Shown one piece after another: positions 33,941-52,793 of a stretch of DNA of 64,000 nucleotides (position 1 is the first letter of the stretch; each line of letters opens with the position of its first letter). Origin of the DNA: Chitinophagaceae bacterium (lineage in GTDB: Bacteria > Bacteroidota > Bacteroidia > Chitinophagales > Chitinophagaceae); assembly GCA_024508725.1 (NCBI GenBank), contig JANINS010000002.1:1-64000 (forward strand). The letters are read 5' to 3'. Position numbers and translations under genes: made by a program. The notes under the pieces are model-generated. The model worked only from the letters and a program-made list of their open reading frames with translations, made no database searches and had not been told where the DNA came from.

Positions 33941-34032
33941 CATCTGCAGTACAAGAGTCACGCTGAAGACGTGATAAATGCGACGCAAGTAAAGCTGAAA
34001 GCAGTTATGCAGCTGGTCTCAACAAATTGATC

Positions 34033-37030: not shown

Positions 37031-37753
37031 TTAATTCTTTTTACCCGATTGAATTTCTTGTAATTCTTTCTCCAGTGAATCTGCAAGTTCCATGGAGGTA
37101 TTGGTGTTCATTTTGCGTAGTTCCTGAATAATATTCGATTGGGAGATGGGATCATTCTGTTTATCAGGAAAATCGGGTACTTCTTTTTTTATAGTTATCG
37201 AAGAACTGTTAAACAGGTCTATAACCCAGTCGTTGACACAGCAGTCGATTACAAGATGTATTCTGTCTGTATTGCTTTTATTATGCAGCCTGTGCATCAT
37301 TGCAAGATTCAGGTACCAGCATTCACCTTCACCCATACACATTCTTTCTTCTTCAAGGTAAAATTCAACTAACTCATTCGTGAAAATGGGAATATGCAAT
37401 CTTACTTCTCCTTGTTCATAATAAAGATCTTTATCACTGTGGGCATGAACTTCTGCACCGCTTTTAAGATTTAAAAGCCTTACAGTCAGTTTAGGGCATT
37501 GTAGCTGATCGAGAATTTCTTTGATGTACGGCACTTCATTCATCCAATGTGTATCTTCAAAATGATTGTTTGCATCAAGTGCGAGGATGTTGTTTGCATC
37601 ACCATTTACAGAACGAAGCGGTAGTGCAGACCAATCACCTTTATACTCAAGTGTATTATAATGCAATGACCATTTTTTTGAGAGCAGCAAATTTGTTTCC
37701 TGTTGCAACTTCTGCACGTCAAATAAAAATGGGAGTTGTAAGTATTTGATCAT
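37031..37753 (-). CDS. Aspartyl/asparaginyl beta-hydroxylase-fold dioxygenase
   Basis: 240 residues with a double-stranded beta-helix. The Fe(II) ligands are His105-x-Asp107 (HAHSDKD) and His154 (MMHRLHN), and Arg164 (NTDRIHLVID) fits as the 2-oxoglutarate anchor. The family hydroxylates Asp or Asn in proteins, or free or peptidyl proline. There is no signal peptide, so it is cytoplasmic. It is divergent, across 75 bases, from the sulfotransferase operon. The substrate is unknown; a shared pathway with that operon is inference from position. Confidence 0.82.
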   Translation of the reverse strand: MIKYLQLPFLFDVQKLQQETNLLLSKKWSLHYNTLEYKGDWSALPLRSVNGDANNILALDANNHFEDTHWMNEVPYIKEILDQLQCPKLTVRLLNLKSGAEVHAHSDKDLYYEQGEVRLHIPIFTNELVEFYLEEERMCMGEGECWYLNLAMMHRLHNKSNTDRIHLVIDCCVNDWVIDLFNSSSITIKKEVPDFPDKQNDPISQSNIIQELRKMNTNTSMELADSLEKELQEIQSGKKN

Positions 37754-37828
37754 TTTGGGAATTGTAGAACAAGTTTACTTATAGTTAAGTAAATAAGATG
37801 CAGTTAATACGTTTTTACTATCTTCCAT

Positions 37829-38827
37829 ATGCTTTTTATGAACCAACCCTCATTACTGTTTAACTACTTGCCAATAAAACTGCAGCAGGATAGCCTTGTA
37901 AGCTGGCTACATGCAGGTGCGATTTCTTTTACCGATCCTTTTTTTGACGAGACCATCGGTAAGATCAAACGATTACCTGAGAACAGAAGACGTTATATAA
38001 GCGTTAGCTCAACAGATGTGCTGGAACAAGGAGCTAGAGAATTAGATTCAATAAAACCATCGGCTATCATTTTTCATGTGTCCCGGTGTGGCTCTACTTT
38101 GCTATCCCAGTTACTTGGATTGGATGCAACAAATATTATGTTGGCAGAGATTCCTTTTTTTGATGACTTGCTAAGATCAAAGTATAAAGGGACTAATCAA
38201 GATTGTTCTAACGCTTTACCCTATGCCGTTCAGTTTTACGGGCAAAGAAGAACCGGAAACGAAAAGCATCTTTTTATTAAAACTGACAGTTGGCATCTTT
38301 TCTTTTATGAGCAATGGAGGAATTTATATCCTGACATTCCTTTTATATTGTTATATAGGAGGCCTGATGAAGTGATACATTCTCAAATGAGACGGAAAGG
38401 GTTGCATGCGGTGCCTGGTTTGATAGAGAAGGAAATTTTTGAACTGGAAACACTTCCGTCAATTGCAGATGGACACGAAAATTATATGGCTGCAGTATTG
38501 AAACAGTATTACATGCAGATGCTTTTTATTCTGGAAAAAGATCCGTTAGCTTATTCGTTTAACTACAATAAAGGAATTGGAAATGTTGCCTTAAAAATGA
38601 TGTCATTCATCGGCAGTGAACTAGATGAGCGGCAAGCAATATTATTCGAAGATCGTTTAAAATATGATGCTAAAGATCCTATGAAGTTATTCAGCCAGGA
38701 GGCTTTTTCATCAATTAAAAGCAATAAATATTTACAGGAAGCTTTTGAATTATATAAGAAACTGGAAGTATTTAAAACTGAGATAAAGACAATCAAGGGA
38801 CATCTACCTGCTAATGCTATAAAATGA
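37829..38827 (+). CDS. Sulfotransferase-family protein
   Basis: 332 residues; a second in-frame ATG is at 37838. The 5'-phosphosulfate loop is HVSRCGSTLLSQL (Ser85 to Thr90), and the 3'-phosphate site is LLYRRPDEVIHSQM (about 177-190). Both are PAPS-binding elements of P-loop sulfotransferases. Enzymes with this build transfer sulfate to a hydroxyl of a sugar, peptide or small molecule. It is cytoplasmic. The gene overlaps the next by four bases (ATGA). No PAPS synthesis gene is in the window. Confidence 0.8.
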   Translation: MLFMNQPSLLFNYLPIKLQQDSLVSWLHAGAISFTDPFFDETIGKIKRLPENRRRYISVSSTDVLEQGARELDSIKPSAIIFHVSRCGSTLLSQLLGLDATNIMLAEIPFFDDLLRSKYKGTNQDCSNALPYAVQFYGQRRTGNEKHLFIKTDSWHLFFYEQWRNLYPDIPFILLYRRPDEVIHSQMRRKGLHAVPGLIEKEIFELETLPSIADGHENYMAAVLKQYYMQMLFILEKDPLAYSFNYNKGIGNVALKMMSFIGSELDERQAILFEDRLKYDAKDPMKLFSQEAFSSIKSNKYLQEAFELYKKLEVFKTEIKTIKGHLPANAIK

Positions 38828-39909
38828 AAACATTGAATTTAGGATTACTATTGCCTACTTCGTCTATCATTCCTATGGGTAAGCAATTTGAAAAAGGATT
38901 GAAGGAAGTTTTGTCAATAAAAAGTCCTGATACCACTATTGAGATCAGCAAAGAATTCATCGGACAAGGCAGCGTAAGTCAAACACAAAACAGCATTAAT
39001 AAACTATTTAACTATGATGATGTAGATATCGTAACAGGTATTCTATCCAATAAGCTGGCAGAAAATTTCTCATCACTTTTTCAAAAACAACGCAAGCCTT
39101 TTATCATAAACAATCTCGGAGAAAATATTCCTGATCCTTACCAACTCAATGCGTTTACACTTACCAGCTCTTTCGGGTTCTGGCAGCATGCATGGACTTT
39201 AGGCTATTGGGGAGTTAGAACATTCGGCAAAAAAGGAATGTATGTAAGTTCAGTATATGATGCTGGTTACAGTTTTTCACATATGTTCTATGAAGGAATG
39301 AAAGCTGCGGATGCAGATTGTGAATGGAGTTTTTCAATAGCACCTGTGCATGTGCCTGGTGAATTATCAGACCTTAGTGTCATCTTTCCTTATCTGGAAC
39401 AGTACCAACCGGATTTTGTTTTTGCCACCTTCTGTGGTGCAGAGACAACGATCTTTATCAACGAGTTTATTGCACGTGGTTGGCATAAAAGAACTCGACT
39501 GCTGGGGCTTCCGTTTTTATTAGACCCGTTTATGCCGGTGAACGGTGATATTAATATTTATACAACATCACCATCGATCATACATCCATCTTTAAAAGCC
39601 AAGGATTGCTTCTATCACTTAGGTCAACAAACTGCGGATGTTATTTGTAGCGGGTTAAGTAAAGGAACAGATTTGCAGATTGACTTCAGTAGCGATGAAA
39701 GGTTGCAGAAATCCGGAGGTGCCTTTTTTCTTGAACATTCTGCAAATCCAGAAGGTAACTTAACGATATTTAAAAATGATATTGTTGCCGGATCAGCCAC
39801 GTTTACATCTGAATCAATAGGGGAAGTTCCAACTTTTCCTATCAAACAATTGGATGCAATGGAGAGAAGTACATTGATCGGCTGGAATAATCCCTATTTA
39901 TGTGTATGA
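38824..39909 (+). CDS. Periplasmic-binding-protein fold without a signal peptide
   Basis: 361 residues starting MKTLNLGLLLPTSSIIPMG, which is the first beta strand of a type I periplasmic-binding (leucine/urea ABC-type) fold. Features include FEKGLKEVL, VDIVTGILSNKLAENF and FVFATFCGAETTIFINEF. There is no hydrophobic leader and no ABC permease nearby, so it should act in the cytoplasm, for instance as a small-molecule sensor or carrier. It is sandwiched by 4-base ATGA overlaps between the sulfotransferase and formyltransferase genes. Function not known. Confidence 0.7.
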   Translation: MKTLNLGLLLPTSSIIPMGKQFEKGLKEVLSIKSPDTTIEISKEFIGQGSVSQTQNSINKLFNYDDVDIVTGILSNKLAENFSSLFQKQRKPFIINNLGENIPDPYQLNAFTLTSSFGFWQHAWTLGYWGVRTFGKKGMYVSSVYDAGYSFSHMFYEGMKAADADCEWSFSIAPVHVPGELSDLSVIFPYLEQYQPDFVFATFCGAETTIFINEFIARGWHKRTRLLGLPFLLDPFMPVNGDINIYTTSPSIIHPSLKAKDCFYHLGQQTADVICSGLSKGTDLQIDFSSDERLQKSGGAFFLEHSANPEGNLTIFKNDIVAGSATFTSESIGEVPTFPIKQLDAMERSTLIGWNNPYLCV

Positions 39910-40838
39910 TGAAGGTGCTATTATTATGCAGTTCAGATGTGATGGCTATTCCGTCTGCTTTGAAGCTTCGATCTGCAGGATTATTAGCTGGCATAGTTTT
40001 TCCGCAAAAACATGCAATAAGATTATCGCAATCTTTCAAACAAGCTGGTTTTGATGCTGATGTTTTTCATACTTGTAGTAAAGAAACTCTTGCAGAGGAT
40101 TTCATTAGCGCTGCAAATAAATCCAAAGCAGATGTTGTGATAGTGATTACATTCCCATGGAAAATTCCGGCCGATGTGTTTAGTGCTATGCCTAAGGGAT
40201 GTTATAATTTTCATCCAGGAGCGTTACCGAAGTATAGAGGGGCTGATCCTATCTTCTGGCAAATAAAAAACAGGGAGTCATACATCACTTTTTCAGTACA
40301 CCTTATGAATGACGACGTCGACAGCGGTCCGTTGATTTGCCAGGAACATTTACCGTTGTCTCCAGACGATACGTATGGGATGGTAGCGCAGAATATGTCT
40401 TGGCTGATTGCTGAAACCTTTCCTAAGTTCATTGACCTAATCAAAAATGGTAAAACGCTGGGGCAGATACAAGAGAGTATGGATATTTTTTACAAACAGA
40501 AACCCACTCATGAATGCCTTCGGATTAACTGGAACAAACAGACCTCAGGAGAAATACAAGCTCTTGTGAATGCATGTAATCCCCGATATAATGGTGCAAT
40601 AACTATGATAAAGAACAGGCAAATTAATATCGTGGAAGTTGCCCTTATTAATGTAAACAATGCTCCTGGTACAACCGTTCCAGGTGAGATCATTCATTCT
40701 GATGAGCTTTACGGGCCTATTATATCATGCATCGATAATAAATTTTTAAAGCTAAATGTTGTGTGTATGAATGAGGGTTTTTTATCAGGATCAAAACTCT
40801 TTAAAATGGGATTCACAGCCGGGATCTGCTTTGGGTAA
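39906..40838 (+). CDS. Stand-alone formyltransferase (Fmt/ArnA-like)
   Basis: 310 residues from the ATG at 39906, which overlaps the upstream stop as ATGA; an in-frame ATG lies two codons earlier at 39900. The N10-formyl-THF transferase core has Asn101, His103 (YNFHPGALPKYRG) and Asp139 (DDVDSGPL), the catalytic trio of methionyl-tRNA and UDP-Ara4N formyltransferases. The C-terminal domain (about 210-305) is Fmt-C-like. Its position in a sulfotransferase operon and its divergence argue against it being the housekeeping Fmt; an amino-sugar or peptide amine is a more likely acceptor. Confidence 0.85.
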   Translation: MMKVLLLCSSDVMAIPSALKLRSAGLLAGIVFPQKHAIRLSQSFKQAGFDADVFHTCSKETLAEDFISAANKSKADVVIVITFPWKIPADVFSAMPKGCYNFHPGALPKYRGADPIFWQIKNRESYITFSVHLMNDDVDSGPLICQEHLPLSPDDTYGMVAQNMSWLIAETFPKFIDLIKNGKTLGQIQESMDIFYKQKPTHECLRINWNKQTSGEIQALVNACNPRYNGAITMIKNRQINIVEVALINVNNAPGTTVPGEIIHSDELYGPIISCIDNKFLKLNVVCMNEGFLSGSKLFKMGFTAGICFG

Positions 40839-40992
40839 ATCTGATCAATAAATTAATTTATTATGTATTAGTTTCTTATTCATAATAATTTCCATATTTT
40901 TAATAGAGCTGCTTTTTTGTCTATTGAATCAATCTTCAATGAACTAATTGCAACCTGACAACACCATTTTTTCACTTAAAACCCCCAACAAA

Positions 40993-41598
40993 ATGGACGA
41001 GTATTTAGGGATCGTAAAGATCTTCGCAGGCAATTATGCCCCAAGAGGCTGGCAATTCTGTGCCGGTCAGATATTAAGTATTGCATCCAATACTGCTTTG
41101 TTCTCACTTTTAGGAACCGTTTATGGCGGTAACGGGACAAACACCTTTGGACTGCCCGACCTCAGAGGCAGGGTTCCTATTGGCACCACGAATACCGGAG
41201 GTTCTCCTTTAAGCACTTATAATTTAGGGCAGGTAGGTGGTGTAGAGAATGTTACGTTAACAGTAAACCAAATGCCAATGCACAATCATGCCGCTACGTT
41301 TACGCCTAGTGGTGGCGGTAGTGCAGTTAAAGCATCGAGCAGTGATGGTGCTGCACCAACACCTTCAGCCACAAATCCAACTTTGGCTACCGCAAAAGAC
41401 CCTGATGGTGGGGTAACCATTAACCTGTACAATTCAGCCACACCTGATATTACTCTTAATACCGGTGGCGGTGGAGCTTCCGGCGGAACAGTTACAGTTA
41501 ATGCTAATGGTGGAAGCCAGCCCTTTTCTATTATTCAACCATATCTTTCCATGAACTATATTATATGTGTTGAAGGATTATTTCCAAGTAGAAATTAA
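40993..41598 (+). CDS. Phage-tail-collar (MdpB-like) domain protein
   Basis: 201 residues from the ATG at 40993; the longer frame from a TTG at 40948 would add 15 residues with no support. It opens with MDEYLGIVKIFAGNYAPRGW and continues WQFCAGQILSI, TYGGNGTNTFGLPDLRGRVP, the tail-collar domain of microcystin-dependent-protein type. The C-terminal half is Gly/Thr/Asn-rich. No signal peptide. Single proteins like this are widespread in Bacteroidota away from phage genes and their function is not settled. It follows the formyltransferase gene by 154 bases and ends at a terminator. Confidence 0.85.
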   Translation: MDEYLGIVKIFAGNYAPRGWQFCAGQILSIASNTALFSLLGTVYGGNGTNTFGLPDLRGRVPIGTTNTGGSPLSTYNLGQVGGVENVTLTVNQMPMHNHAATFTPSGGGSAVKASSSDGAAPTPSATNPTLATAKDPDGGVTINLYNSATPDITLNTGGGGASGGTVTVNANGGSQPFSIIQPYLSMNYIICVEGLFPSRN

Positions 41599-41750: not shown

Positions 41751-43589
41751 TTAATTGAGTTTAACGATGGAAAAACGTGTTGTGCCATCAGTACTGGTTG
41801 TAACAGCATTAGCGGCATTTGTGTTAATACCAGTTACTTTAATCGTTCCGCTGTTATTCAACTGAACTATCTGTGAGATAGTTGATCTTCCGTTAGCGCT
41901 TCCGGTGCTAGTTCCTATTCCTGGTGCCACCGCATAATTACTACCGTTTACGATAAGTGTTAATGCTACCGGGGCAACTGTAGTACTAGCAACACTTATG
42001 GTAACCAGGTAAGTACCTGCACCCGTTGCACTGGCAGTATAAGTTACACCATTGAAAGTACCGTATCCACTTGTTACAGATTGATTAGCACTAAAACTTA
42101 TATCGGCAGTTGTACTGATAGGGATTGATTGTGCAGATCCATTAGTAGCCATCAATACTGTTACAATTCCTGATGCACCTGTTGGACCCGTTGCACCAGT
42201 TGGGCCTGTGGCACCTGCTGGTCCGGTAGCACCTGTTGCTCCAGTTGGACCGGTAGCACCATTTGCTCCATTAGATCCGGTAGGACCGGTAGCACCTGTG
42301 GCACCGTTAGCTCCAACAGCACCTGTTGCTCCAGTTGGACCTGTAGCACCATTCGCTCCATTAGATCCGGTAGGACCAGTAGCACCTGTGGCACCGTTAG
42401 CTCCAACAGCACCTGTTGCTCCAGTTGGACCTTGAGCACCTGTTGCTCCGTTAGCTCCCACAGCACCAGTGGCTCCTGTCGGACCTTGAGCACCCGTTGC
42501 TCCAGTTGGACCGGTAACACCATTCGCTCCATTAGATCCGGTAGGACCTGTAGCACCAGTAGCTCCAACAGCACCTGTTGGACCTTGAGCACCTGTTGCA
42601 CCGTTAGCTCCAACAGCACCAGTAGCACCTGTTGGACCTTGAGCACCTGCTGCTCCGTTAGCACCCGTAGCACCTGTTGGACCTTGAGCACCCGTAGCAC
42701 CTGTGGCACCGTTAGCTCCAACAGCACCAGTAGCACCGGTTGGACCTTGAGCACCCGTAGCACCTGTTGCACCGTTAGCTCCAACAGCACCTGTGGCACC
42801 TGTTGGACCTTGAGCACCCGTAGCACCTGTTGCACCGTTAGCTCCAACAGCACCAGTGGCACCTGTTGGACCTTGAGCACCTGTGGCACCATTAGCTCCC
42901 ACAGCACCTGTAGCACCTGTTGGACCTTGAGCACCAGTAGCTCCATTAGCTCCAACAGCACCAGTGGCACCTGTTGGACCTTGAGCACCCGTAGCACCTG
43001 TTGGACCTTGAGCACCCGTTGCTCCGTTAGCTCCCACAGCACCAGTGGCACCTGTTGGACCTTGAACACCAGTTGCACCAGTAGTTCCTGTTGGACCTTG
43101 AGCACCAGTAGGACCTGTAGGTCCGGGTGCTCCATTACATATGTAAACAGTAATGGTAACGTTTATCTCGCCTGCATCTAATACATTATTATTATTGGCA
43201 TCAGTTCCGGCTTCAATCTTTGTACCGCCGTTAGGGCAATTCGCTACAGAAGCAGGAGAAGTTTTTATAAGAGAATTAGATCCATTGGCTCCTGCCGGAC
43301 CTAAGGCTCCAAGGAACTGCCAATTAGGAGAACCAGGTGTTCCTTTATTAAAGTAAAAACCATCGGTTCCGTCGGTCTGGTAAACCAGCAAACCGGTGGC
43401 AGGGCTTGTTATGGCTGATCTTTGAGCAGCGGTCATCCTGGGTACCAGCACACCTTTTGTTGTGCCTTTTACATCGAGTAAGGCACTGTTATCAGGTGCG
43501 GATCCATCAGTATTGATTCCCACATTTTGTGAGAATGTCATTCCTGACCAGAGCAGTCCAAAAATCAACAGCAGTTTTTTAATGCTCAT
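41751..43589 (-). CDS. Secreted collagen-like (Gly-X-Y) protein with C-terminal head domain
   Basis: 612 residues with a signal peptide (cleavage after MTFSQ). An N-terminal domain (about 22-150) includes the tail-protein-like segment [16 protein letters not shown] and a Ca-binding-like loop [10 protein letters not shown]. Residues 153-474 are about 107 uninterrupted Gly-X-Y triplets, mostly [12 protein letters not shown] and GAQ. The last 138 residues ([10 protein letters not shown] onward) are beta-rich, like the trimerising heads of BclA-type exosporium collagens. A surface trimeric filament is the likely form. Thr-rich GPT triplets are known O-glycosylation sites in such proteins. It follows the T9SS gene at 43618 by 28 bases. 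Confidence 0.9.
42168..43133 (-). repeat. Gly-X-Y coding repeat array
   Basis: The 9-base triplet code is organised in higher-order units of 54 bases (18 residues, [18 protein letters not shown]) and 63 bases (the same plus one GAT). The units are nearly identical in DNA. Such an array can change length by slippage or recombination without breaking frame. Confidence 0.9.
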
Positions 43590-43617
43590 GTGTTTTGGTT
43601 ATTAGTTGAAATCTGAA

Positions 43618-45003
43618 TTATCTTTTAATAATTGTTATGGTTTTAAAATCAAAGCCGGAAAGCTTTATCATATATGTACCCTGAGACAAGCCGCTTACAT
43701 CAAACGGAATATCATTCAAACCTGCCTGTACATTCAATCTTGCTGATGCCACTGTTTTTCCGGAAACATCCAATATCTGAAGTATGGTTGCTTTTACTGC
43801 ACCATTAGAAATAAATCGTAATTGCAATGGTCCATTAGAAGGATTAGGATATACACCGATAAAGCTGTTGGTAATCGTTCCTTTAGTAAAATAAATCACC
43901 TTAGTGTAGGTGTGCTTTCCATCAACATCCACTTGTTTAATTCTATAGTAAACTGCGTTTCCACTTCCAAATGCATTTGCATCGGTAGATTGATAGTTTC
44001 CACCTAATGCATTGCCTGATGATCGCACAGTGGCAAAAACAGAGAAATTCCTTCCGTCAACAGACTTTTCCACTTCAAAATGACTATTGTTCAATTCCAA
44101 ACTTGTAGACCAGTTAAGTATAATATTGTTTCCAGCTATCTGCCCGGTAAAAGAAACAAGGTTTACCGGCAGCGGATTGTTAACAGAACTTGCAAGCGTT
44201 AACCGGTTTAATTGGCCTATACCATTTTTTAAAACAAAATTCGCTGAGGCATCCAGAGCATCGGCTCCTAACAAATTCCACGTGCTACCATTATTAGCAG
44301 ATGACCACAACTTCAATTCGTTTTCATTGATCGAACCAAGTTCCTGATCACGGTAGTTGAACTTTACTGTTGCATTGAGAGAGGTATTATTAGCAGGAAT
44401 GATATCATAATAGCGGTAAATGCCGTATCCACTCGAACTTACCTGCTGCATATGTCCTCTCTTAATCGTTGTTAAGCCAAGGTTAGCCGCACTGGTAATT
44501 TCAATACCCATATTACCAACGTTAACCGCATTAGGAGCATTGAGGTTTACTGTTTTTAACACTGAACCACCCGATAGTCCGGTGATAAATGCAGACGCAC
44601 TTTCACCAGATATATTTCCTGTACTTCCAAGATCAAGATCAAAAGTTGAAAGATCGAGGCTACCCATTTGCAGTAAAACATTATTACTTACAGAAATATT
44701 CCTTGTAAGTTTTGCACTGCCAGAAGATTTATTGATAGAAAGATTATAAAAGTTTAACGAGGAAGTACCGCCCAGAGTAGTGATAAGCGATGAAGCTGTT
44801 CCGGAAAATGTTACTGTACCGGTACCAGAAGTAAAAACGCCTGAATTGTTTAATCCTCCATCATTGATAACAAGATTCGCATTTCCATTAATTACCAGGT
44901 TGGCACCTGTGGTTATAGTAACACCTTGTGCTGTACTTCTAGCAGAAAAATAAATAAGAACGAATAGTACCGCAATTGTTCTAGTGAGAAGAATATGCTG
45001 CAT
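43618..45003 (-). CDS. Secreted T9SS cargo protein upstream of the collagen-like gene
   Basis: 461 residues with an N-terminal signal sequence (cleavage after RSTAQ). A beta-rich N-terminal half (about 25-260; repeats such as NLVINGNANLVIN, GTGTVTFSGTASS) is followed by a fibronectin-like segment (LVSFTGQIAGNNIILNWSTS) and a type A T9SS sorting domain (VYPNPSNGPLQL, GTYMIKLSGF). No enzyme motif is seen. It is the first gene of a two-gene operon with the collagen-like protein and may anchor or display it; that role is inference. Confidence 0.82.
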   Translation of the reverse strand: MQHILLTRTIAVLFVLIYFSARSTAQGVTITTGANLVINGNANLVINDGGLNNSGVFTSGTGTVTFSGTASSLITTLGGTSSLNFYNLSINKSSGSAKLTRNISVSNNVLLQMGSLDLSTFDLDLGSTGNISGESASAFITGLSGGSVLKTVNLNAPNAVNVGNMGIEITSAANLGLTTIKRGHMQQVSSSGYGIYRYYDIIPANNTSLNATVKFNYRDQELGSINENELKLWSSANNGSTWNLLGADALDASANFVLKNGIGQLNRLTLASSVNNPLPVNLVSFTGQIAGNNIILNWSTSLELNNSHFEVEKSVDGRNFSVFATVRSSGNALGGNYQSTDANAFGSGNAVYYRIKQVDVDGKHTYTKVIYFTKGTITNSFIGVYPNPSNGPLQLRFISNGAVKATILQILDVSGKTVASARLNVQAGLNDIPFDVSGLSQGTYMIKLSGFDFKTITIIKR

Positions 45004-45220
45004 TACGTTAGTTTGGTTTGGGTATCAACTATCTATATACAATTATACGGATTAATAACTTAATTGGCAGCTTAAAAAATATAAGTCCGTCAAAAAAGCA
45101 AGTCTGGGTGCTATTGGCCATATACCAGAACTTCTTCAAACAAGCTGATTTAATAGCTAATCTTGGTAAAAAAAGCACAACGCTTTACTTTGGTGCATTA
45201 TTACACCCCAAAAAAGATGC

Positions 45221-47173
45221 ATGAGCTTTAAAACCAAAACGCTTTATCTACTATTCATCTGTATTTTGGCTTTCGTTGCTTATTCCAATCACTTTGATAA
45301 TGCCTTTCACTTCGACGACTTTCATACCATCAAGGACAATTCTTCAATACGGAGTTTAAAGAATATTCCTCTTTTTTTTAAAGACGCTACTACCACAAGC
45401 ACACTTCCGTTTAACCAGGCTTACCGCCCAGGCTTAACTACATTAAATACATTGGATTTCTACTTGTCAGGAGAAAAAGATCCAACACCTTTCATGTTCC
45501 ATGTTTCTATTTTTATTAGTTACCTCGTCTTAGGATTTCTATGCTTTTTGCTGTTCTCTCACTTACTTACAATAAGTCTTACCAGCAGGTTCAACGATAT
45601 TGTATCACTCTTGTTCACTGCCTTTTTTTTAGTGCATACTGCTAATGCCGAGACCATTAATTATATCATTGCCCGATCCGATTCCTTTTCTACCTTAATG
45701 ATCGTTCTCTCATTTATTATGTATTTGTATTTGCCACGAACGAGAAGGTGGCATCTATACTTTCTGCCATCACTCATTGGATTTTTTGTGAAAGAACCTT
45801 CGCTGATGTTTGTACCATTACTATTGGTATACAAGCTGCTATTTGAACAGCAGTTATCCGTGAACAAATTTATTTCCAGGAAAGCTTTTCGTTCATTGAA
45901 GCAGGTGCTTATACCACTGATATTATCCATTCTTGTTTTTGTGCTGTCAAGAATATTTACACCTGTTCATTGGCAAGGTGGTGGCACCAATTCACTCGAT
46001 TACCTGCTTACCCAGCCGTTTGTTATATTTCATTATGTAATGAATTTTATTCTGCCGCTAAACCTTGCTGTAGATACAGACTGGAAACCTATAGCCAACT
46101 ATCATACTGATGAAATGTTCGCCGGTATTCTTTTCCTGGCATTATTGTTAATCATTGCGGTGCGAACATCAGCACTTCAAAAAACGAGACCTGTTTCATT
46201 CGGAATATTGTGGTTCTTTCTTGCATTGGCACCCAGTTCAAGTATTATCCCTTTTGCAGAAGTATTGAATGATCATCGTACCTTCTTTCCTTACATCGGG
46301 CTCTTTATATCCTTAGCCTGTTTGCTTAGGAATTTGATTCAATTTTCGCCTAAACTCCAGGTAGGAGTGGGGAAATGGGCAATGATCTTTATCTCTCTTT
46401 TGGTGATCGTGTTACATACATATGGCACTTACAACAGAAATAAAGTCTGGGCAACAGAAGAATCTTTATGGAAAGATGCTACAGTTAAATCTCCTGCAAG
46501 CGGAAGAGTCTGGATGAATTATGGAAATACTTTAATGTCAGGAGGCGATTACACAGGTGCATTGCGGTGTTACGAAAAAACTATTTCACTCAATCCTTCC
46601 TATGCTTATGGCTACATCAATATCGGGATAGCGAAAAGCCAGTTAGGTGATCATACTAATGCAGAGATCAACTTTAAAAAAGCTTTGGAACTTGAGAAAC
46701 TTGTTCCTGATTGCTATGCTTTCTATGGTCAATTCCTGGTAGACCAGGGGAGATTTTCCGAGGCTGTAAATATTTTGCAGCAAGGATTAGCAATAAGTCC
46801 GCATCATGTGAAAATGCTTGCATTATCTGATCAGGCTAAAGCTATGGTTACTGCATCAGGCAGTACATCTAACGATAAGATCAAAGTATTGCTTGAAAGC
46901 ATTCAACAGTCAGCCACAGCTGAAAAATACCTTGATCTTAGCCTGGCATATTATAATAACTTACAGTACCAGGAGTGCATTGCTTCAGCAAATAGTGCCC
47001 TATTGATGAAGCCAGACTATGACCTGGCATATAATAATATTTGTGCCGCTTATAATAAGTTACTACAATGGGATAAAGCTATAGAAGCTGCAGAGAAGGG
47101 TCTTAAGATCAACCCCAATAATGAATTGCTGAAAGGTAATCTTGCCGTTGCCCTCTCTGCAAAAAATAAGTAA
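45221..47173 (+). CDS. TMTC-like GT-C membrane protein with TPR domain
   Basis: 650 residues. About 10 membrane helices occupy residues 1-400, with an acidic Asp32-Asp33 motif (FHFDDFHTI) in the first outer loop, the position of the catalytic acidic pair of GT-C glycosyltransferases, and NDHRTFFPYIG near 370. Four or more TPR units follow (about 430-645; AYGYINIGIAKSQLGDHTNAE, NPNNELLKGNLAVALS). This is the layout of eukaryotic TMTC protein O-mannosyltransferases, which use polyprenyl-phosphate mannose. It would glycosylate exported proteins at the outer face of the inner membrane; the acceptor is not known. One base separates it from the carbamoyltransferase gene. Confidence 0.8.
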   Translation: MSFKTKTLYLLFICILAFVAYSNHFDNAFHFDDFHTIKDNSSIRSLKNIPLFFKDATTTSTLPFNQAYRPGLTTLNTLDFYLSGEKDPTPFMFHVSIFISYLVLGFLCFLLFSHLLTISLTSRFNDIVSLLFTAFFLVHTANAETINYIIARSDSFSTLMIVLSFIMYLYLPRTRRWHLYFLPSLIGFFVKEPSLMFVPLLLVYKLLFEQQLSVNKFISRKAFRSLKQVLIPLILSILVFVLSRIFTPVHWQGGGTNSLDYLLTQPFVIFHYVMNFILPLNLAVDTDWKPIANYHTDEMFAGILFLALLLIIAVRTSALQKTRPVSFGILWFFLALAPSSSIIPFAEVLNDHRTFFPYIGLFISLACLLRNLIQFSPKLQVGVGKWAMIFISLLVIVLHTYGTYNRNKVWATEESLWKDATVKSPASGRVWMNYGNTLMSGGDYTGALRCYEKTISLNPSYAYGYINIGIAKSQLGDHTNAEINFKKALELEKLVPDCYAFYGQFLVDQGRFSEAVNILQQGLAISPHHVKMLALSDQAKAMVTASGSTSNDKIKVLLESIQQSATAEKYLDLSLAYYNNLQYQECIASANSALLMKPDYDLAYNNICAAYNKLLQWDKAIEAAEKGLKINPNNELLKGNLAVALSAKNK

Positions 47174-47174
47174 T

Positions 47175-48914
47175 ATGACAATACTTGGATTTAACAGTTT
47201 CGGGCATGATTCTGCTGCTGCGTTGATGATAGACGATGAGGTAGTATATGCAGTAGAAGAGGAGCGACTTAATCGAAAGAAACATGCAGGTGGTTTTCCA
47301 ACATCAGCAATTGCAAGTTGCCTGGAACATGGAAATATTTCTATTGATGATGTGGATCATGTTGCTTTTTTCTGGAAGCCATCTATTTCTTTTAGTAAGA
47401 TACCTGTTTACCTTCTGAAGTTCTGGGATAAAGTACCAACCTTATTACGGGAACAAAGGCATTTTGAAGTAGAAGAAAACCTGGGTATGTTGAATTATTT
47501 GTTCGACATGTACAAGCTGCCCAAAAAACTAAGACAGATCTATAATGCTAAACATTCAAAATTCAAGTTTCATTTTTTAGAACATCATTTGTGTCATGCT
47601 GCAAGTGCATTTTATCCATCGCCGTTTGAAGATGCTGCGATATTAACGATTGATGGTGCAGGAGAGTGGGCAACCACTTTGTTGGGCTATGGCAAAGGAA
47701 ACAACATCAAAAAGCTGCAAACGGTTAATACACCTTATTCGTTAGGTGCTTTTTACCAGGCAATATCTGTTCACCTCGGATTTAAATTGATTGAAGGTCC
47801 CGGAAAACTAATGGGCTTAGCATCTTATGGTGATCCTGATGCGAAACAGTATCACGAAATGAAAAGACTATTTCGCTTGAAGAATGACGGCACCTTTGAA
47901 TTTGACATGCGCTACTTCTCATACCATTACACCAGGAAGTCGGGTGTAAGCCCAAAGTTTACGGATCTCTTTGGACCATCTAAATATAGTGGTGCAGATT
48001 GGTCGCATCATGAATTAAATGTAGCAGCAGCGGCTCAGCGTATCGTGGAAGATGTAGTGATGCATATGGTAATACATCTTAAGAAACTCACAGGGAGTAA
48101 CAATTTATGCATGGCTGGCGGTGTTGCATTGAACAGTGTTACAAATGGTATTATTGCCAAGTCTGGTTTATTCAAAGATATCTTCATTCAACCGGCGGCA
48201 GGCGATTCCGGAACTGCTATTGGTGCAGCACTGTTACTGGACCATCAGGTGCTTAACAGGAAAAGGCATGTAATGAAAACTGCATTTCTTGGTCCTTGTT
48301 ATGATAACGAAGCTTGCATAAAAGCAATCGAGTCTGCAGGGCTGCCCTATAAGGTAGCGGGAAATGCTGCATACGATTTTACTGCACAACAGTTGATGAG
48401 TAATAAGATCATTGCATGGTTTCAGGGAAGAATGGAATTTGGTCCAAGGGCATTAGGCAACAGGAGTATTCTTGCAAACGCTATGAACCCGGAGATGAAA
48501 AACATATTGAACAGGAGGGTAAAATTCAGAGAAGGATTCAGACCATTTGCAGCCATCGTTACAGAGGAAGATTGCGGTAAATATTTTGACCATGATTACC
48601 CTAATCCTTACATGCTGCTGGTATATAATGTTCGGGATGAATATAAAACCAGGCTACCATCATTGACACACGTAGATGGTACGGTGAGAATTCAAACGGT
48701 GAATGAAAAAGAGAATCCGCCAATGCGAAAATTACTCAAAACCTTTGAGCAGTTAAGTGGTTATCCTGTGTTGATCAACACTTCATTTAATGTTAAGGGA
48801 GAACCCATCGTTTGCACACCTGAAAATGCTGTCAATTCATTCGTTAATGCAGATATTGATTACCTGATCATCAATGATATTATTGTAGCTAAAGACCTTG
48901 CTTCTTTAGGTTAA
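47175..48914 (+). CDS. NodU/TobZ-type carbamoyltransferase
   Basis: 579 residues from the ATG at 47175; the frame opens earlier at a TTG inside the previous gene. The N-terminal Kae1/HypF-like half starts MTILGFNSFGHDSAAALM, has EEERLNRKKHAG, and carries the metal/ATP motif HHLCHAASAF (His137, His138, His141). The C-terminal half has FQGRMEFGPRALGNRSILAN and VLINTSFNVKGEP. The enzyme transfers carbamoyl from carbamoyl phosphate, through carbamoyl-AMP, to a hydroxyl of a sugar or natural product. Operon position suggests a carbamoylated glycan. The 3' end overlaps the convergent epimerase gene by 9 bases. Confidence 0.92.
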   Translation: MTILGFNSFGHDSAAALMIDDEVVYAVEEERLNRKKHAGGFPTSAIASCLEHGNISIDDVDHVAFFWKPSISFSKIPVYLLKFWDKVPTLLREQRHFEVEENLGMLNYLFDMYKLPKKLRQIYNAKHSKFKFHFLEHHLCHAASAFYPSPFEDAAILTIDGAGEWATTLLGYGKGNNIKKLQTVNTPYSLGAFYQAISVHLGFKLIEGPGKLMGLASYGDPDAKQYHEMKRLFRLKNDGTFEFDMRYFSYHYTRKSGVSPKFTDLFGPSKYSGADWSHHELNVAAAAQRIVEDVVMHMVIHLKKLTGSNNLCMAGGVALNSVTNGIIAKSGLFKDIFIQPAAGDSGTAIGAALLLDHQVLNRKRHVMKTAFLGPCYDNEACIKAIESAGLPYKVAGNAAYDFTAQQLMSNKIIAWFQGRMEFGPRALGNRSILANAMNPEMKNILNRRVKFREGFRPFAAIVTEEDCGKYFDHDYPNPYMLLVYNVRDEYKTRLPSLTHVDGTVRIQTVNEKENPPMRKLLKTFEQLSGYPVLINTSFNVKGEPIVCTPENAVNSFVNADIDYLIINDIIVAKDLASLG

Positions 48915-49748
48915 TTTTTTAAGTGTGTCAACCGGTGAAAGCCAGGTGCTTCCCATTTGTTTGTATTCATTCGAGGTGTCTACATACTTTGACGCCATCA
49001 GGCCGATCAGGTTGTCATAGTTGAATGGCGGATTAGGGAATAATTGTAATGCAGTAACCAAACCTTTCATCAACAATAGTGGTACAGGAATAAAAGTCAC
49101 CGGCATTTTTAACTGCATTGCCATGTGCTCAAGCAGATCTTTATAAACTATTTTTTCAGGGTGAGCAAGTTCGTAAACCCCCACAGCATTATTCTCGATT
49201 AGCCAAATACTAGTGTTTACGAGATCGTTTATAAAGATGCTTTGTATCACCTGTTTTCCGTCTTTCAATAAAGGAATGAACCTGCTTCTTTGCAGCTGAT
49301 GTTTCATTCTTCCGAATAGTCCACCATTACCTAACACGAGCCCCGGTCTTATTATAAGGTCTTCTCGAAAAAAATGTTCGAGATCTTTTTTACACTTTCC
49401 ATAATAAGAAAGAGTAACAGGTTCTGATGCAGCAAAGCTTGACATAAGCACATACTTCGGCAAGTTCAGTTCTTTAATAAACTTTGTCGCCCTGATGTTT
49501 ACATCTTCCCCGTCGATTGTCTTTTTCCTGAACTCAAAAGCAAGATGAATCAAAACGTCAACATTCGTAAACATTTCGGATGAGGGAAAATGTTCAATAG
49601 AATAATTTACGTATTCAACACCTTTTATTTTTTCTTTCGGTTGATGATGAACAAGTGCCTTTACACTATATCCTTTTATGCTAAAAGCCTTCACCATTTC
49701 AGTGCCGATAAATCCATTTGCTCCCGTTATAGCAATGGTCTTACTCAT
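48906..49748 (-). CDS. NAD-dependent epimerase/dehydratase (extended SDR)
   Basis: 280 residues. The Rossmann motif GANGFIG is near the start (ITGANGFIGTEMV), and YYGKCKKDLE gives the catalytic Tyr-x-x-x-Lys. A substrate region and the typical IRPGLVLG strand follow. Such proteins act on nucleotide sugars or related carbonyl groups; this one is shorter than GalE-type epimerases (about 340), so an atypical SDR or NmrA-like role is possible. It is the last gene of the minus-strand operon from 52793 and overlaps the GMC gene by 8 bases. Confidence 0.8.
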   Translation of the reverse strand: MSKTIAITGANGFIGTEMVKAFSIKGYSVKALVHHQPKEKIKGVEYVNYSIEHFPSSEMFTNVDVLIHLAFEFRKKTIDGEDVNIRATKFIKELNLPKYVLMSSFAASEPVTLSYYGKCKKDLEHFFREDLIIRPGLVLGNGGLFGRMKHQLQRSRFIPLLKDGKQVIQSIFINDLVNTSIWLIENNAVGVYELAHPEKIVYKDLLEHMAMQLKMPVTFIPVPLLLMKGLVTALQLFPNPPFNYDNLIGLMASKYVDTSNEYKQMGSTWLSPVDTLKKLT

Positions 49749-51345
49749 TTCTTAATAATTTACTTGCCGTCATATGTGCATAGGCCATCAAAGAAAGTGT
49801 AAGCCCTTTGCCCGGTAGATAAGTAAAGCCACAACCATCTGCTACATAAACATTGCTGGTACCATATAGTTTTCCATTACGAGATATATGGAAAGGTTTT
49901 TCCGTATCACTGAATGGTAATGTTCCGGCATAATGTATACTGCCTCCTGTTATCGTTCGCATCTTTTTCAGCACCAGGCAACTTAATTTTCTGAAAGCGC
50001 TGGAATACACCTTTTCAGTGTGGCTTATCATCGCTTCTTCCTTATCGATGTATGTATAATTAGTGAACAGTGTGTCGCCGGTTACGGATGACGATTGCTT
50101 TAGTTGAATAGTATTGCCCTGCAAGTATGTTGCAGGATGAAAGATGCCTGCGATGAATAATGATGGGATCATCAATTGCAAGAACTTCCTGCCGTCAGCA
50201 TGATTCAAAGGCATTTGCTTCATTATTCTAAAGTTGAGTAATGAACGGTAGTTGTAAACAGATGCCATGGCTACGTTACTATGATCATTATCCGGATCAT
50301 AAAACATGGCTAACTGAGCCAGGCTGCTGAATTTACCTGTATGCTGTTTACCAACAAATGGCAGGTAAATCATGGGCATATAAGTATATGCATTACAGAT
50401 CACCGGCAATTGATCAAAACCGGCTAAAGATCGCATAACGATCCTCGATGTACCCAAAGTGCCTGAGCAGAGTATTAATTTCCTGGCGTGAAAATGTTTT
50501 ATTTCTTGAGAATGGATGCTCAGGCATTGAATGGAAACAACATTGTCCTCCTCTTTAAAAGACAGTATAAGCCACCCCTTTTTGTAATCAAGTATTCCTT
50601 GATTAATTAGTTTATGTATAGTAATATAAGGTCGATAAGCACTGTTGCCCTCATTAGTATAAAAATCAGTATCGTTATACCCGTAAGCTTTTCTGCCGTC
50701 GATATCTTTAGTCAAAAGTGCCAATGAAGGTCTGCCGATTGCTATTCCTTTTTGCGTGAATTGTTTTTGTTTCTTTTTATACTTATAGTATAAACTTTCT
50801 GCTGCTGGATTTAATCGGATAGGAGGTTGTATCGGAAATAGATTGTTATGACAATAAGCACTGGCATCATCGTCTACACTACCGGATATTCCTATCCTTT
50901 CTGCAACAGTTTTATAAGCATTGTTCATCTCATCAACCGGCAAATTGCATTTCCTCAACTCATTATCTGAAAAAGTATAGCTGCCCAATCCCCATCCATT
51001 ACCTAATCCACCAAATGCAAGTGATTCAACAGGAAAAAAATTGTTAGATTGAATTGAAAGAAATCTATCGGTTTGTGCATTCATAAATGCACGCTGCGGA
51101 GTTTGCTGTGGTATATTAGGATGTACAGGTTCTCTTAATGCTTCAAACGCATCGCCTAGAAAGAACTCTGACTGATGTTCATCATGCAATCTTTTCGATA
51201 TAAAATCGTCGTTGTGCTTTGTTGATATTTCGCCTTCAATGCCTGCATCGATCATCAGCACTGATCTTCCGTTTCCGCAAAGTGTTTCTGCAGCCATTGC
51301 ACCTGTGCAGCCCGAACCTATTATAATATAATCTGCTAACTCCAT
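49741..51345 (-). CDS. GMC-family FAD oxidoreductase
   Basis: 534 residues from the ATG at 51345; an ATG three codons upstream is possible. The dinucleotide motif GSGCTGAMAAE starts at about residue 10. FGGLGNGWGLGSYTF and the C-terminal VADGCGFTYLPGKGLTLSLM match the FAD-binding and GMC C-terminal regions of choline/glucose/long-chain-alcohol oxidoreductases. It oxidises an alcohol or sugar, substrate unknown. It has no leader and overlaps the small gene upstream by 10 bases, which suggests a paired product. Confidence 0.85.
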   Translation of the reverse strand: MELADYIIIGSGCTGAMAAETLCGNGRSVLMIDAGIEGEISTKHNDDFISKRLHDEHQSEFFLGDAFEALREPVHPNIPQQTPQRAFMNAQTDRFLSIQSNNFFPVESLAFGGLGNGWGLGSYTFSDNELRKCNLPVDEMNNAYKTVAERIGISGSVDDDASAYCHNNLFPIQPPIRLNPAAESLYYKYKKKQKQFTQKGIAIGRPSLALLTKDIDGRKAYGYNDTDFYTNEGNSAYRPYITIHKLINQGILDYKKGWLILSFKEEDNVVSIQCLSIHSQEIKHFHARKLILCSGTLGTSRIVMRSLAGFDQLPVICNAYTYMPMIYLPFVGKQHTGKFSSLAQLAMFYDPDNDHSNVAMASVYNYRSLLNFRIMKQMPLNHADGRKFLQLMIPSLFIAGIFHPATYLQGNTIQLKQSSSVTGDTLFTNYTYIDKEEAMISHTEKVYSSAFRKLSCLVLKKMRTITGGSIHYAGTLPFSDTEKPFHISRNGKLYGTSNVYVADGCGFTYLPGKGLTLSLMAYAHMTASKLLRNE

Positions 51346-51734
51346 CTTAAACATTTCAACAGGCAGGCTCCCGCTAATCCTTTCAGCATAGCAACGCCTC
51401 CTTTGTAAAAAAAACCTATTATAGCAAATGGCTGAACATCCTTTGTTAGAAACATATCTGCATACATTGTATCTGTTTCCATCAATGCAAACATTACCAA
51501 TAAGCGTTTGCGTATACCATGTTTGGTATTGATCAACGCCAATCCTCCATCTATAAAAGGCAACAAGAAAGAAAACCGAGTGATGCGTTTTAATAACGCA
51601 GTTTCTTTTGCATTAAGTTTCAACGGCAGTGTTTCAACAGCTTTATAATAGCGAAGTTGTAAGCTTGGTGAAATCTCTTTTGCCCCCAGATACCTGGCAA
51701 AAACGACAGCCTCGTGCTCTAATTCATTCTGCAT
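51336..51734 (-). CDS. Small protein paired with the GMC oxidoreductase, unknown function
   Basis: 132 residues from the ATG at 51734, which gives an 11-base overlap with the DUF2304 gene; the longer start at 51773 would overlap by 50. It is mostly helical (VVFARYLGAKEISPSLQLRYY, NAKETALLKRITRF) with a weakly hydrophobic C-terminal third that is rich in Gly, Ala and Leu. No family recognised. Overlap on both sides suggests translational coupling. A small subunit for the GMC enzyme is one possibility, as gluconate dehydrogenase has a small helical third subunit. Confidence 0.6.
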   Translation of the reverse strand: MQNELEHEAVVFARYLGAKEISPSLQLRYYKAVETLPLKLNAKETALLKRITRFSFLLPFIDGGLALINTKHGIRKRLLVMFALMETDTMYADMFLTKDVQPFAIIGFFYKGGVAMLKGLAGACLLKCLRWS

Positions 51735-52077
51735 TCTTTTCTGAGTCTTGTTTCTCTTGTTTAAGTAGAGCAATTTCCTGTACGAGTTTAGTAATACTTT
51801 TCTGAAGTTTTGAATTTACGACTGATAAGTGTAGCAGGTAGATAAGAATAAGAAAAATAAAACCGGTAAATACCAGGTTTGGTGGATCGTACACGCCGAA
51901 CTCTTTAGCCAGCACATCAAGCCCATCTCGCCAGAATGAAAAAATGATCAGGAGTATCGTGAAAACGATCCAAACAATTGCATATTCTTCCCTGAGCTTT
52001 CCTTTTATGATCAGCCGGGAAATAAATACAAGAAAAAGAAAGTTTACAATAATAACAATGATCTGTATGCGTGCCAT
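51724..52077 (-). CDS. DUF2304 membrane protein
   Basis: 117 residues with three hydrophobic helices (residues about 3-22, 33-50 and 68-86) and a cytoplasmic coiled-coil tail (SKLQKSITKLVQEIALLKQEK). The helix-1 to helix-2 join KGKLREEYAIVWI is the DUF2304 signature. In many bacteria this family lies beside DPM1-like glycosyltransferases, as here with a 2-base gap, and may help to anchor them or to handle the polyprenyl-phosphate donor. Function is not established. Confidence 0.85.
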   Translation of the reverse strand: MARIQIIVIIVNFLFLVFISRLIIKGKLREEYAIVWIVFTILLIIFSFWRDGLDVLAKEFGVYDPPNLVFTGFIFLILIYLLHLSVVNSKLQKSITKLVQEIALLKQEKQDSEKNAE

Positions 52078-52079
52078 GG

Positions 52080-52793
52080 TTACTGTTTTCTTATGAATGA
52101 ATAGAACATCGCTATAGTTACCTTAACAATGTAATATAATTGTGAGGAATAGCGAATGGATGATTGTCCGCCTTGCCTTTTTTTCATACATACCGCAACT
52201 TCTGATATTGTAAGACCAGCTTTTGAAAAACTTACCAATGACTCCGGTTCGGGATATTCGTCAGGATAATAACGAACTGCAGCTGTTATTGCCTTACGAT
52301 CAAACAAACGAAAACCCGAGGTGCAATCATGGATCATTTTTCCTGTAAACAATCTGTTTATCCATTTTAAATAATTAATCCCTCCTCTTCTGAGAATTGA
52401 TGATTGATAACCTTGCTTTGAAATGAACCTGGAGCCGATTACAATATTGGTTTTAACAGTGTGCCAATGTTGCAGCAGCTTATTGATCTCTGTGGGAGGA
52501 TGTTGTCCGTCGCCATCCATTTGAATGGCAAGATCAAACCTGTTATTATGTGCATAGCGATAACCCGTTTGCATGGCTCCACCGATACCAAGATTCATCG
52601 GAAGATCAAGTAGCACTACATCCTTGAATTGCTGCACAACTTTTTTTGTGTGATCTTTTGAACAATCGTTTACAACGGCGACAACAACTTTAAAATTTAG
52701 GGTAAACTCAACTGCAAATAACTCATTCAATAAACCGGCAATAGTAACTTCTTCATTATAGCAGGGTATGATGATAAGCAGTTTAGTTTGCAT
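52080..52793 (-). CDS. GT2 glycosyltransferase, DPM1-like (polyprenyl-phosphate glycosyl synthase)
   Basis: 237 residues. It begins LLIIIPCYNEEVTIAGLL, carries the nucleotide/metal motif MDGDGQHPP (about 92-100), and has the GSRF and TSGFRLFDRKA segments of the DPM1/DPG synthase group. There are no C-terminal membrane helices, so it is peripheral. Such enzymes transfer a hexose (often mannose or glucose) from a nucleotide sugar to undecaprenyl phosphate, giving the donor used by GT-C enzymes such as the TMTC-like protein at 45221. It is the first gene of the minus-strand operon. Confidence 0.85.
   Translation of the reverse strand: MQTKLLIIIPCYNEEVTIAGLLNELFAVEFTLNFKVVVAVVNDCSKDHTKKVVQQFKDVVLLDLPMNLGIGGAMQTGYRYAHNNRFDLAIQMDGDGQHPPTEINKLLQHWHTVKTNIVIGSRFISKQGYQSSILRRGGINYLKWINRLFTGKMIHDCTSGFRLFDRKAITAAVRYYPDEYPEPESLVSFSKAGLTISEVAVCMKKRQGGQSSIRYSSQLYYIVKVTIAMFYSFIRKQ

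Follow-up and report, generated by a model that had tools for sequence, protein, structure and literature searches.

The question raised by this locus is whether a bacterial collagen-like protein is encoded next to the enzymes that glycosylate it. The stretch analysed (hereafter the window) corresponds to the first 64 kb of contig 2 (JANINS010000002.1) in the 3.88 Mb genome of a Chitinophagaceae bacterium (GCA_024508725.1), where a first-pass annotation, made from the sequence alone, had seen a collagen-like protein gene beside genes for a TMTC-like membrane transferase and a glycosyltransferase of family GT2. Sequence comparisons indicate that this gene set is likely to be an O-glycosylation system dedicated to collagen, in which Thr at the Y position of the Gly-X-Y triplets would be the main acceptor. 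This reading is based on gene content, on a GT-C fold prediction, on the co-occurrence and linkage of the genes concerned and on a Thr bias in the collagen sequences.

Left of 45.1 kb, the minus strand encodes a protein sorted by the type IX secretion system (T9SS) and the collagen-like protein; right of it, the plus strand encodes the TMTC-like transferase, with a GT-C domain and a tail of tetratricopeptide repeats (TPR), followed by a carbamoyltransferase. Beyond the latter lies a convergent minus-strand set for GT2, a DUF2304 protein, a small protein, a GMC-type oxidoreductase and a short-chain dehydrogenase/reductase (SDR):

41751..43589, minus strand: collagen-like secreted protein, 612 aa (Pfam), the proposed acceptor
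42162..43133, minus strand: its Gly-X-Y tract, residues 153-476 (coordinates computed from the open reading frame, ORF)
43618..45003, minus strand: T9SS type A sorted protein, 461 aa, directly adjoining the collagen gene; recurrent partner
45221..47173, plus strand: TMTC-like GT-C transferase with TPR tail (Pfam for TPR, structure prediction for GT-C)
47175..48914, plus strand: carbamoyltransferase (PF02543 + PF16861), starting at an ATG in an ORF that opens with TTG at 47142
48906..49748, minus strand: SDR-type NAD(P)-dependent epimerase/reductase, over Pfam cut-off
49741..51354, minus strand: GMC-type FAD oxidoreductase (weak assignment), nearest to cellobiose dehydrogenase and pyranose oxidases
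51336..51773, minus strand: helical protein of 132-145 aa without Pfam match, likely start ATG at 51734
51724..52077, minus strand: DUF2304 membrane protein (Pfam), GacJ-like partner of GT2
52080..52793, minus strand: GT2 of the polyprenyl-phosphate-sugar synthase type, 237 aa, without visible C-terminal membrane domain

All genes named by the first-pass annotation are real and lie where it had placed them; it had passed over the T9SS-sorted protein (43618-45003), the small protein (51336-51773) and the genes at 37031-41598 described below. The carbamoyltransferase, SDR (its epimerase), GT2 and DUF2304 domains all score over their Pfam cut-offs, and the GT-C protein with a TPR tail was recovered, the tail by Pfam and the fold by prediction. 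Promoter and terminator scans returned about as many sites as in shuffled sequence.

Co-occurrence of the transferase with collagen

Two families were surveyed, in which collagen was defined by a score over the Pfam cut-off. In the window's family, the transferase (match with E below 1e-100) occurs in 9/147 genomes and collagen in 48/147, including all nine carriers (9/9 versus 39/138 non-carriers, p = 2.4e-5). The second family has the transferase in 9/201 genomes and collagen in 100/201, again with all nine carriers included (9/9 versus 91/192, p = 0.0015). Collagen also scored over the cut-off in 44/44 carrier genomes of a named genome collection, which may overlap the two family sets and which derive from 45 of 79 transferase loci (34 loci, mostly with short flanks, and L083 were left out). 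These 79 loci were found with the GT-C model through two peptide patterns, so that motif counts among them are biased. In the phylum background, collagen scores over the cut-off in 60/395 genomes, and strong transferase matches are limited to two genomes, G241 and that of the window, which both have collagen. The relation holds in one direction only: many genomes have collagen and no transferase, but in the sets tested the transferase never occurs without collagen.

Generic GT-C/TPR proteins were rejected as an explanation, since among the matches listed collagen is found in just 8/19 family genomes having only distant relatives of the transferase (9/19 if the borderline G020 is counted); the tie to collagen therefore belongs to the close subfamily. 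DUF2304 follows the same distribution, with matches over the cut-off in 9/9 carriers versus 5/138 non-carriers of the window's family (p = 3e-11), even where the genes are unlinked, and in 42/44 carriers of the named collection. In four of the five non-carrier DUF2304 genomes, which were examined, the adjoining GT2 is just 27-31% identical. The co-occurrence on which the first-pass annotation had staked its proposal thus withstood the survey for both collagen and DUF2304.

Physical linkage

A collagen ORF is present within 6.3 kb at 16 of the 97 transferase loci for which DNA was examined; when only the 50 loci flanked by 8 kb or more in both directions are counted, 11 are collagen-linked. In the window's family, collagen lies within 3.2 kb in 6/9 carriers when 0.12 would be expected within ca. 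10 kb, as derived from collagen gene numbers (p = 2e-10); in the second family, 3/9 copies are linked. Linked copies are scattered on the transferase tree, whose starred branches force at least eight gains or losses, indicating that linkage has been repeatedly gained or lost; this tree was made by a quick method without bootstrap, and in 31/500 shuffles the linkage label was clustered to the same degree.

Thr at the Y position

The collagen-like protein comprises a signal peptide (judged by eye from the sequence), an N-terminal domain, DUF7151, the Gly-X-Y tract and a C-terminal part of ca. 136 aa for which a Pfam search gave no match. The tract, estimated at about 107 triplets by the first-pass annotation, counts 108 in one uninterrupted run (Pfam Collagen, E = 5.5e-49), with Thr at 57% of Y positions.

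When one collagen per genome was compared, the best among the matches listed, the median Y=Thr fraction was 0.51 in 43 carriers versus 0.19 in 56 non-carriers (p = 4e-8), and X=Pro showed the opposite trend (0.14 versus 0.39, p = 3e-7). The Thr difference persists when the tract minimum is set at 20, 30 or 50 triplets. The carriers comprise 34 of the 44 named-collection genomes, G241 and 8/9 of the family genomes; G061, G532 (whose locus is already in the set) and nine collection genomes without a match listed were left out. The non-carriers are part of the genomes among the matches listed, from which L196 and L198 were dropped as second loci of the same genome. Within the window's family, a subset of these two groups, Y=Thr was 0.53 (8 carriers) versus 0.22 (26 non-carriers; p = 0.012). 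Within two genera of the second family, it was 0.52 in 7/9 carriers (without G750 and G753) versus 0.25 in the 16 non-carriers among the matches listed (p = 0.002), with full separation in genus g274. The contrast can even be seen inside single genomes: in G114, the linked collagen has a Y=Thr of 0.55 and an unlinked, Pro-rich one 0.14, and in G096 the values are 0.67 beside the GT2/DUF2304 pair and 0.10 in a Pro-rich collagen elsewhere.

An explanation by shared ancestry or habitat only, in which the genes would be found together in related Bacteroidota with no action on one another, would fit the phylogenetic clustering of the genomes and the occurrence of Thr-rich collagens without transferase. 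Yet the association repeats in two families, the Thr signal also appears within genera, linkage is far above expectation (6/9 versus 0.12) and collagen is found in only 8/19 of the family genomes with distant GT-C/TPR proteins (matches listed), making this explanation most improbable.

Several observations nevertheless weigh against a system dedicated to collagen. Collagen without transferase is common (39/138 and 91/192), the genomes are related so that p values overstate independence, and 39/50 full-flank transferase loci are not beside a collagen gene. DUF2304 is missing in 2/44 carriers, and none of 20 separate DUF2304 loci of the named collection, chosen for lack of DUF2304 near the genome's transferase (L191 has a partial transferase match), adjoins collagen (0/20 versus 11/50, p = 0.017). 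As to Thr, ranges overlap in genus g117 (carriers 0.38-0.73 versus 0.11-0.53), 14/43 carrier collagens have a Y=Thr below 0.35, and Thr-rich collagens exist without transferase (up to 1.0; 0.55 in G065). Moreover, Y-Thr is usual in bacterial collagens, at 31.6% in all bacteria and 48.3% in Gram-positives, according to PMC8968730; relative to this 31.6% mean, the carriers are high and the non-carriers compared here are low.

A broader system could be envisaged, namely a general O-glycosylation of surface proteins with many exported Ser/Thr-rich targets, among which the T9SS-sorted partner or the collar proteins (see below) would perhaps be the main acceptors. Most transferase copies indeed have no collagen within 10 kb, the island repeatedly includes genes for the T9SS-sorted partner and collar proteins as well, and the Pgf system of Streptococcus mutans acts on two surface proteins, Cnm and WapA (PMC5856776). 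Such a system would not require a tie to collagen, yet no collagen-free carrier was found (44/44, 9/9 and 9/9), and the Y-Thr bias of carriers is missing from the unlinked Pro-rich collagens of two of the same genomes; we regard it as unlikely when compared to glycosylation dedicated to collagen.

Other collagen loci were noted in the course of these comparisons. Contig 4 of the window's own genome carries a second pair of T9SS partner and collagen genes (L048, 7880-10897), the collagen being Thr-rich (Y=Thr 0.61); tblastn over the 20 kb examined there gave no match to the transferase, GT2 or DUF2304. In G046 (L200), which has no close transferase, the tract has a Y=Thr of 0.94 with mostly aromatic residues, Cys or Val at X, possibly reflecting another modification route or contamination. 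Finally, at the loci below, collagen genes adjoin a gene for a small, apparently secreted protein (172-195 aa), also in genomes without transferase; this protein may assist in secretion or anchoring:

L193, 12739-13302
L194, 6559-7146
L253, 4900-5439
L042, 12040-12558

The TMTC-like transferase

The GT-C domain spans residues ca. 1-420 and the TPR tail begins at ca. 425. Pfam detected only TPRs in the window protein (TPR_1, E = 1.9e-22; stretches between residues 429 and 634). An AlphaFold model built from ten homologues (pLDDT 81.9, pTM 0.72) aligned over residues 1-440 with yeast Stt3, the catalytic GT-C subunit of oligosaccharyltransferase (8agb; Z 19.9, rmsd 4.7, 336 aligned), and over residues 1-424 with the protein O-mannosyltransferase Pmt4 (9e61; Z 18.5, rmsd 4.2, 336 aligned). 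These GT-C matches came from a second aligner, in which TPR proteins, aligned over the tail, reach almost the same scores; Foldseek with the full model gave TPR-containing proteins among the best 50 matches. No TMTC chain was present among the structural matches listed, and a GT-C domain profile found nothing among PDB sequences up to E = 1.

The TMTC_DUF1736 family (PF08409) was matched by the GT-C domains of 4/9 relatives (best E = 4.2e-4) and not by the window member; the three other Pfam families listed were each hit by one of these nine relatives with E = 0.17 or worse, and PF08409 had no match in the window's own genome or in 14 control genomes. Of the seven TMTC motifs, M1-M7 (Eisenhaber et al. 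2021, PMC7801869), the window protein has M1 (DD, D32 D33), M3 (RxD, R152/D154) and M5 (DW, D287 W288). In M7, Arg353 is kept with His in place of Glu, M2 is partial (YRP only), as is M4 (K191 E192, without T/Q-xx-T), and M6 is not clear because its spacing differs. "TMTC-like" is an apt description of a GT-C domain followed by TPRs; as to membership of the family in the strict sense, a DUF1736 signal in 4/9 relatives and partly matching motifs point clearly neither for nor against. In Stt3, the domain that follows the aligned region is lumenal, and the TPR tail begins close to where this region ends, so that the tail is likely to be periplasmic.

These features also bear on whether the acceptor could be a surface polysaccharide, to which GT2/DUF2304 and the GT-C protein would add a side-chain sugar, with the collagen link arising indirectly through lifestyle or lineage. 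The nearest studied set, GacI/GacJ with GacL, does act on a polysaccharide (PMC8327497); a glycan would be a plausible target for the carbamoyl, GMC and SDR genes, and glycan genes may lie in the conserved neighbour clusters of other copies. The TPR tail, the Pmt4/Stt3-type fold and the TMTC_DUF1736 signal, on the other hand, indicate protein substrates, collagen linkage is repeated, and decoration of a polysaccharide would leave the Y-Thr bias unexplained, so that we consider it highly unlikely.

Regarding other copies of the transferase, two occur in tandem in G082 (L041, 14212-18788), the second reaching the contig end. A Bacteroidota-type transferase is also found on contigs assigned to a Troglogloeales bin (L089) and to a Legionellales bin (L108), both of which are probably binning errors.

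The GT2/DUF2304 pair, a candidate donor module

The closest matches to the GT2 are synthases of the GtrB, dolichol-phosphate-mannose and ArnC types (5ekp, E = 9e-13; 5mlz, E = 1e-8), and in NCBIfam it hits the PpgS, PgfS and AglJ models, all under their cut-offs. Its gene adjoins that of the DUF2304 protein (97.9 bits, cut-off 25.5) in the window and in all eight family relatives, the pair being found beside the transferase or elsewhere in the genome in 9/9 carriers of the window's family. DUF2304 is a typical feature of GacJ-like proteins; the activity of GacI, a GlcNAc-P-undecaprenol synthase, is enhanced by GacJ (PMC8327497). The description of this gene as a DPM1-like GT2 with a DUF2304 partner is sound, its matches being to polyprenyl- and dolichyl-phosphate sugar synthases. 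The first-pass annotation went further, assuming a lipid-phosphate-sugar synthase and a transferase that together act on collagen. That combination is backed by co-occurrence, linkage and Y-Thr, but mannose or hexose as the sugar, attachment to Thr and the transfer itself go beyond these data; overall, the observation it started from is confirmed, its core is probably right and its chemistry is unproven.

Accessory genes

In the carbamoyltransferase, the N and C domains of Carbam_trans were matched with E = 8e-70 and 1e-70, as expected of an O-carbamoyltransferase (NodU/TobZ); the closest solved structure is 7xb6 (E = 1e-92), followed by the novobiocin/GdmN and TobZ types. The GMC gene is present as the first-pass annotation had claimed, with a weaker assignment: GMC_oxred_C scores 23.8 bits against a cut-off of 24.6, and a 13-member profile hits cellobiose dehydrogenase (E = 3e-10) with a best stretch covering just the FAD motif at residues 4-36. 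The 132-aa form of the small protein has no Pfam match and no usable match to a solved fold, and its role as small subunit of a sugar dehydrogenase was accordingly not confirmed.

Across the 79 transferase loci, many of which end early at contig ends, the carbamoyltransferase is found at 16, SDR at 13, GMC at 12 and the small protein at 7. The first-pass annotation had included the carbamoyltransferase, epimerase and GMC genes in its module; their patchy presence makes them accessory and leaves them outside the conserved core. Near the 20 separate DUF2304 loci, GMC is found at 10, SDR at 7 and the small protein at 6. The latter adjoins the GMC gene at most loci where it occurs (L187 has no GMC match). 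The window has the order GT2-DUF2304-small protein-GMC-SDR, as do, among others, L041, L051, L052, L054, L064, L083 and L176-L178; this order is not universal, since SDR is located elsewhere in L185 and L191. The products of these five genes probably act jointly on the donor sugar. One may speculate that oxidation by GMC followed by reduction by SDR would result in epimerisation. DprE1/DprE2 reportedly epimerise a lipid-linked sugar in this way, with different folds.

Proposed mechanism

The scheme that we propose extends to a putative lipid carrier, topology, sugar, acceptor site, stabilising effect and order of steps. In the cytoplasm, GT2, which the DUF2304 protein would tether to the membrane, would place the sugar of a nucleotide-sugar on polyprenyl phosphate, and in some lineages the products of the GMC, small-protein and SDR genes together with the carbamoyltransferase would alter this lipid-linked sugar before it flips to the periplasmic face. 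There, the TPR tail of the GT-C transferase would grip the substrate, a collagen chain still unfolded and emerging via Sec, and the enzyme would move the sugar to hydroxyl side chains, mainly the Y-Thr of Gly-X-Thr. The glycosylated chain would then trimerise and be delivered to the surface with its T9SS-sorted partner.

Riftia pachyptila, a vent worm, is reported to have glycosylated Thr in a helix-stabilising position of its cuticle collagen (PMC10141479). Together with the Y-Thr bias, this suggests that the sugar stabilises the helix, glycosyl-Thr at Y perhaps taking over this function from Pro or hydroxyproline. More generally, we tentatively propose, as a possibility short of a probable one, that some Bacteroidota stabilise Pro-poor, Thr-rich fibres by Y-Thr glycosylation through a dedicated GT2/DUF2304/TMTC-like pathway, the sugar being first edited by GMC/SDR and carbamoylated in part of the lineages.

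Comparison with known systems

Human TMTC1-4, which O-mannosylate cadherins, share with the window protein a GT-C domain followed by TPRs and the DD, RxD and DW motifs. They likewise depend on a separate GT2, DPM1, which makes their lipid-phosphate sugar. The window protein differs in having no TMTC_DUF1736 match and only partial M2, M4 and M6, and the substrate proposed here is a collagen instead of a cadherin. We know of no TMTC-like transferase for BclA of Bacillus or BclA1 of Clostridioides difficile, although no search was aimed at one. Both are, like the present protein, bacterial Gly-X-Y proteins and are reported to be glycosylated, but they belong to Gram-positives (PMC8968730).

GacI/GacJ/GacL of group A Streptococcus also combine GT2, DUF2304 and a separate polytopic membrane transferase (PMC8327497); GacL, however, acts on rhamnan where the acceptor here is probably a protein, and the present transferase has TPRs. 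Pgf of S. mutans (PgfS, PgfM1, PgfE and PgfM2) resembles the window in associating a GT-A glycosyltransferase, a PMT-family protein and an epimerase, and in modifying a surface adhesin encoded alongside; in the part of PMC5856776 available, no TPR or DUF2304 partner is described and Cnm and WapA are not presented as collagen-like. As for Riftia, its galactosylated Thr is said to raise thermal stability (PMC10141479), but collagen and enzymes are those of an animal and just the physical principle would be in common.

Many bacteria have collagen-like proteins and the modifying enzymes are known in few cases; according to PMC8968730, these proteins are mostly not glycosylated. A literature survey limited to titles and abstract beginnings, with few subscription journals, did not tie DUF2304 or TMTC-like proteins to bacterial collagen. 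If true, a dedicated transferase would provide a concrete enzyme, an acceptor rule (Gly-X-Thr) and a list of lineages, and would turn the folding of bacterial collagens without hydroxyproline into a testable question. It would also offer a route to glycosylated recombinant collagen, a bacterial relative for the study of TMTC-type enzymes and a bacterial counterpart to vent-worm cuticle collagen.

The surface-fibre island

Left of the collagen gene, the window encodes five further proteins:

37031..37753, minus strand: Asp/Asn beta-hydroxylase family protein (PF05118), recurrent neighbour of collagen genes
37829..38827, plus strand: sulfotransferase-like protein, below Pfam cut-off, recurrent neighbour
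38824..39909, plus strand: substrate-binding-protein-like (SBP) protein (PF13458), recurrent neighbour
39900..40838, plus strand: formyltransferase (PF00551/PF02911), recurrent neighbour
40948..41598, plus strand: phage tail collar domain protein (PF07484), in 1-3 copies by the collagen gene in relatives

Together with the collagen, T9SS partner and GT2/DUF2304 genes, the hydroxylase, sulfotransferase, SBP, formyltransferase and one to three collar genes form an island that was found, whole or partial, in G114 (L039), G010 (L046), G055 (L130 with L044), G096 (L128, with the transferase elsewhere), Filimonas zeae (L088), Pedobacter psychrotolerans (L105), G015 (L135) and G735, G715 and G741 (L297, L299 and L300). 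The T9SS partner is directly beside collagen in L039, L046, L048, L088, L128, L135 and L136, and separate DUF2304 loci of the window's family are collagen-adjacent in G096 (L128) and G055 (L130), not in G015 (L129). In these genomes, the glycosylation genes are thus located in or near a surface-fibre island that carries further modification enzymes.

The cassette at 37031-41598 recurs, whole or partial, by collagen genes in two families, and its SBP-like protein has no obvious signal peptide. Finally, a chondroitinase-B-like protein (PF14592, E = 2.6e-74) is encoded near the island, at 34027-35472 of the window.

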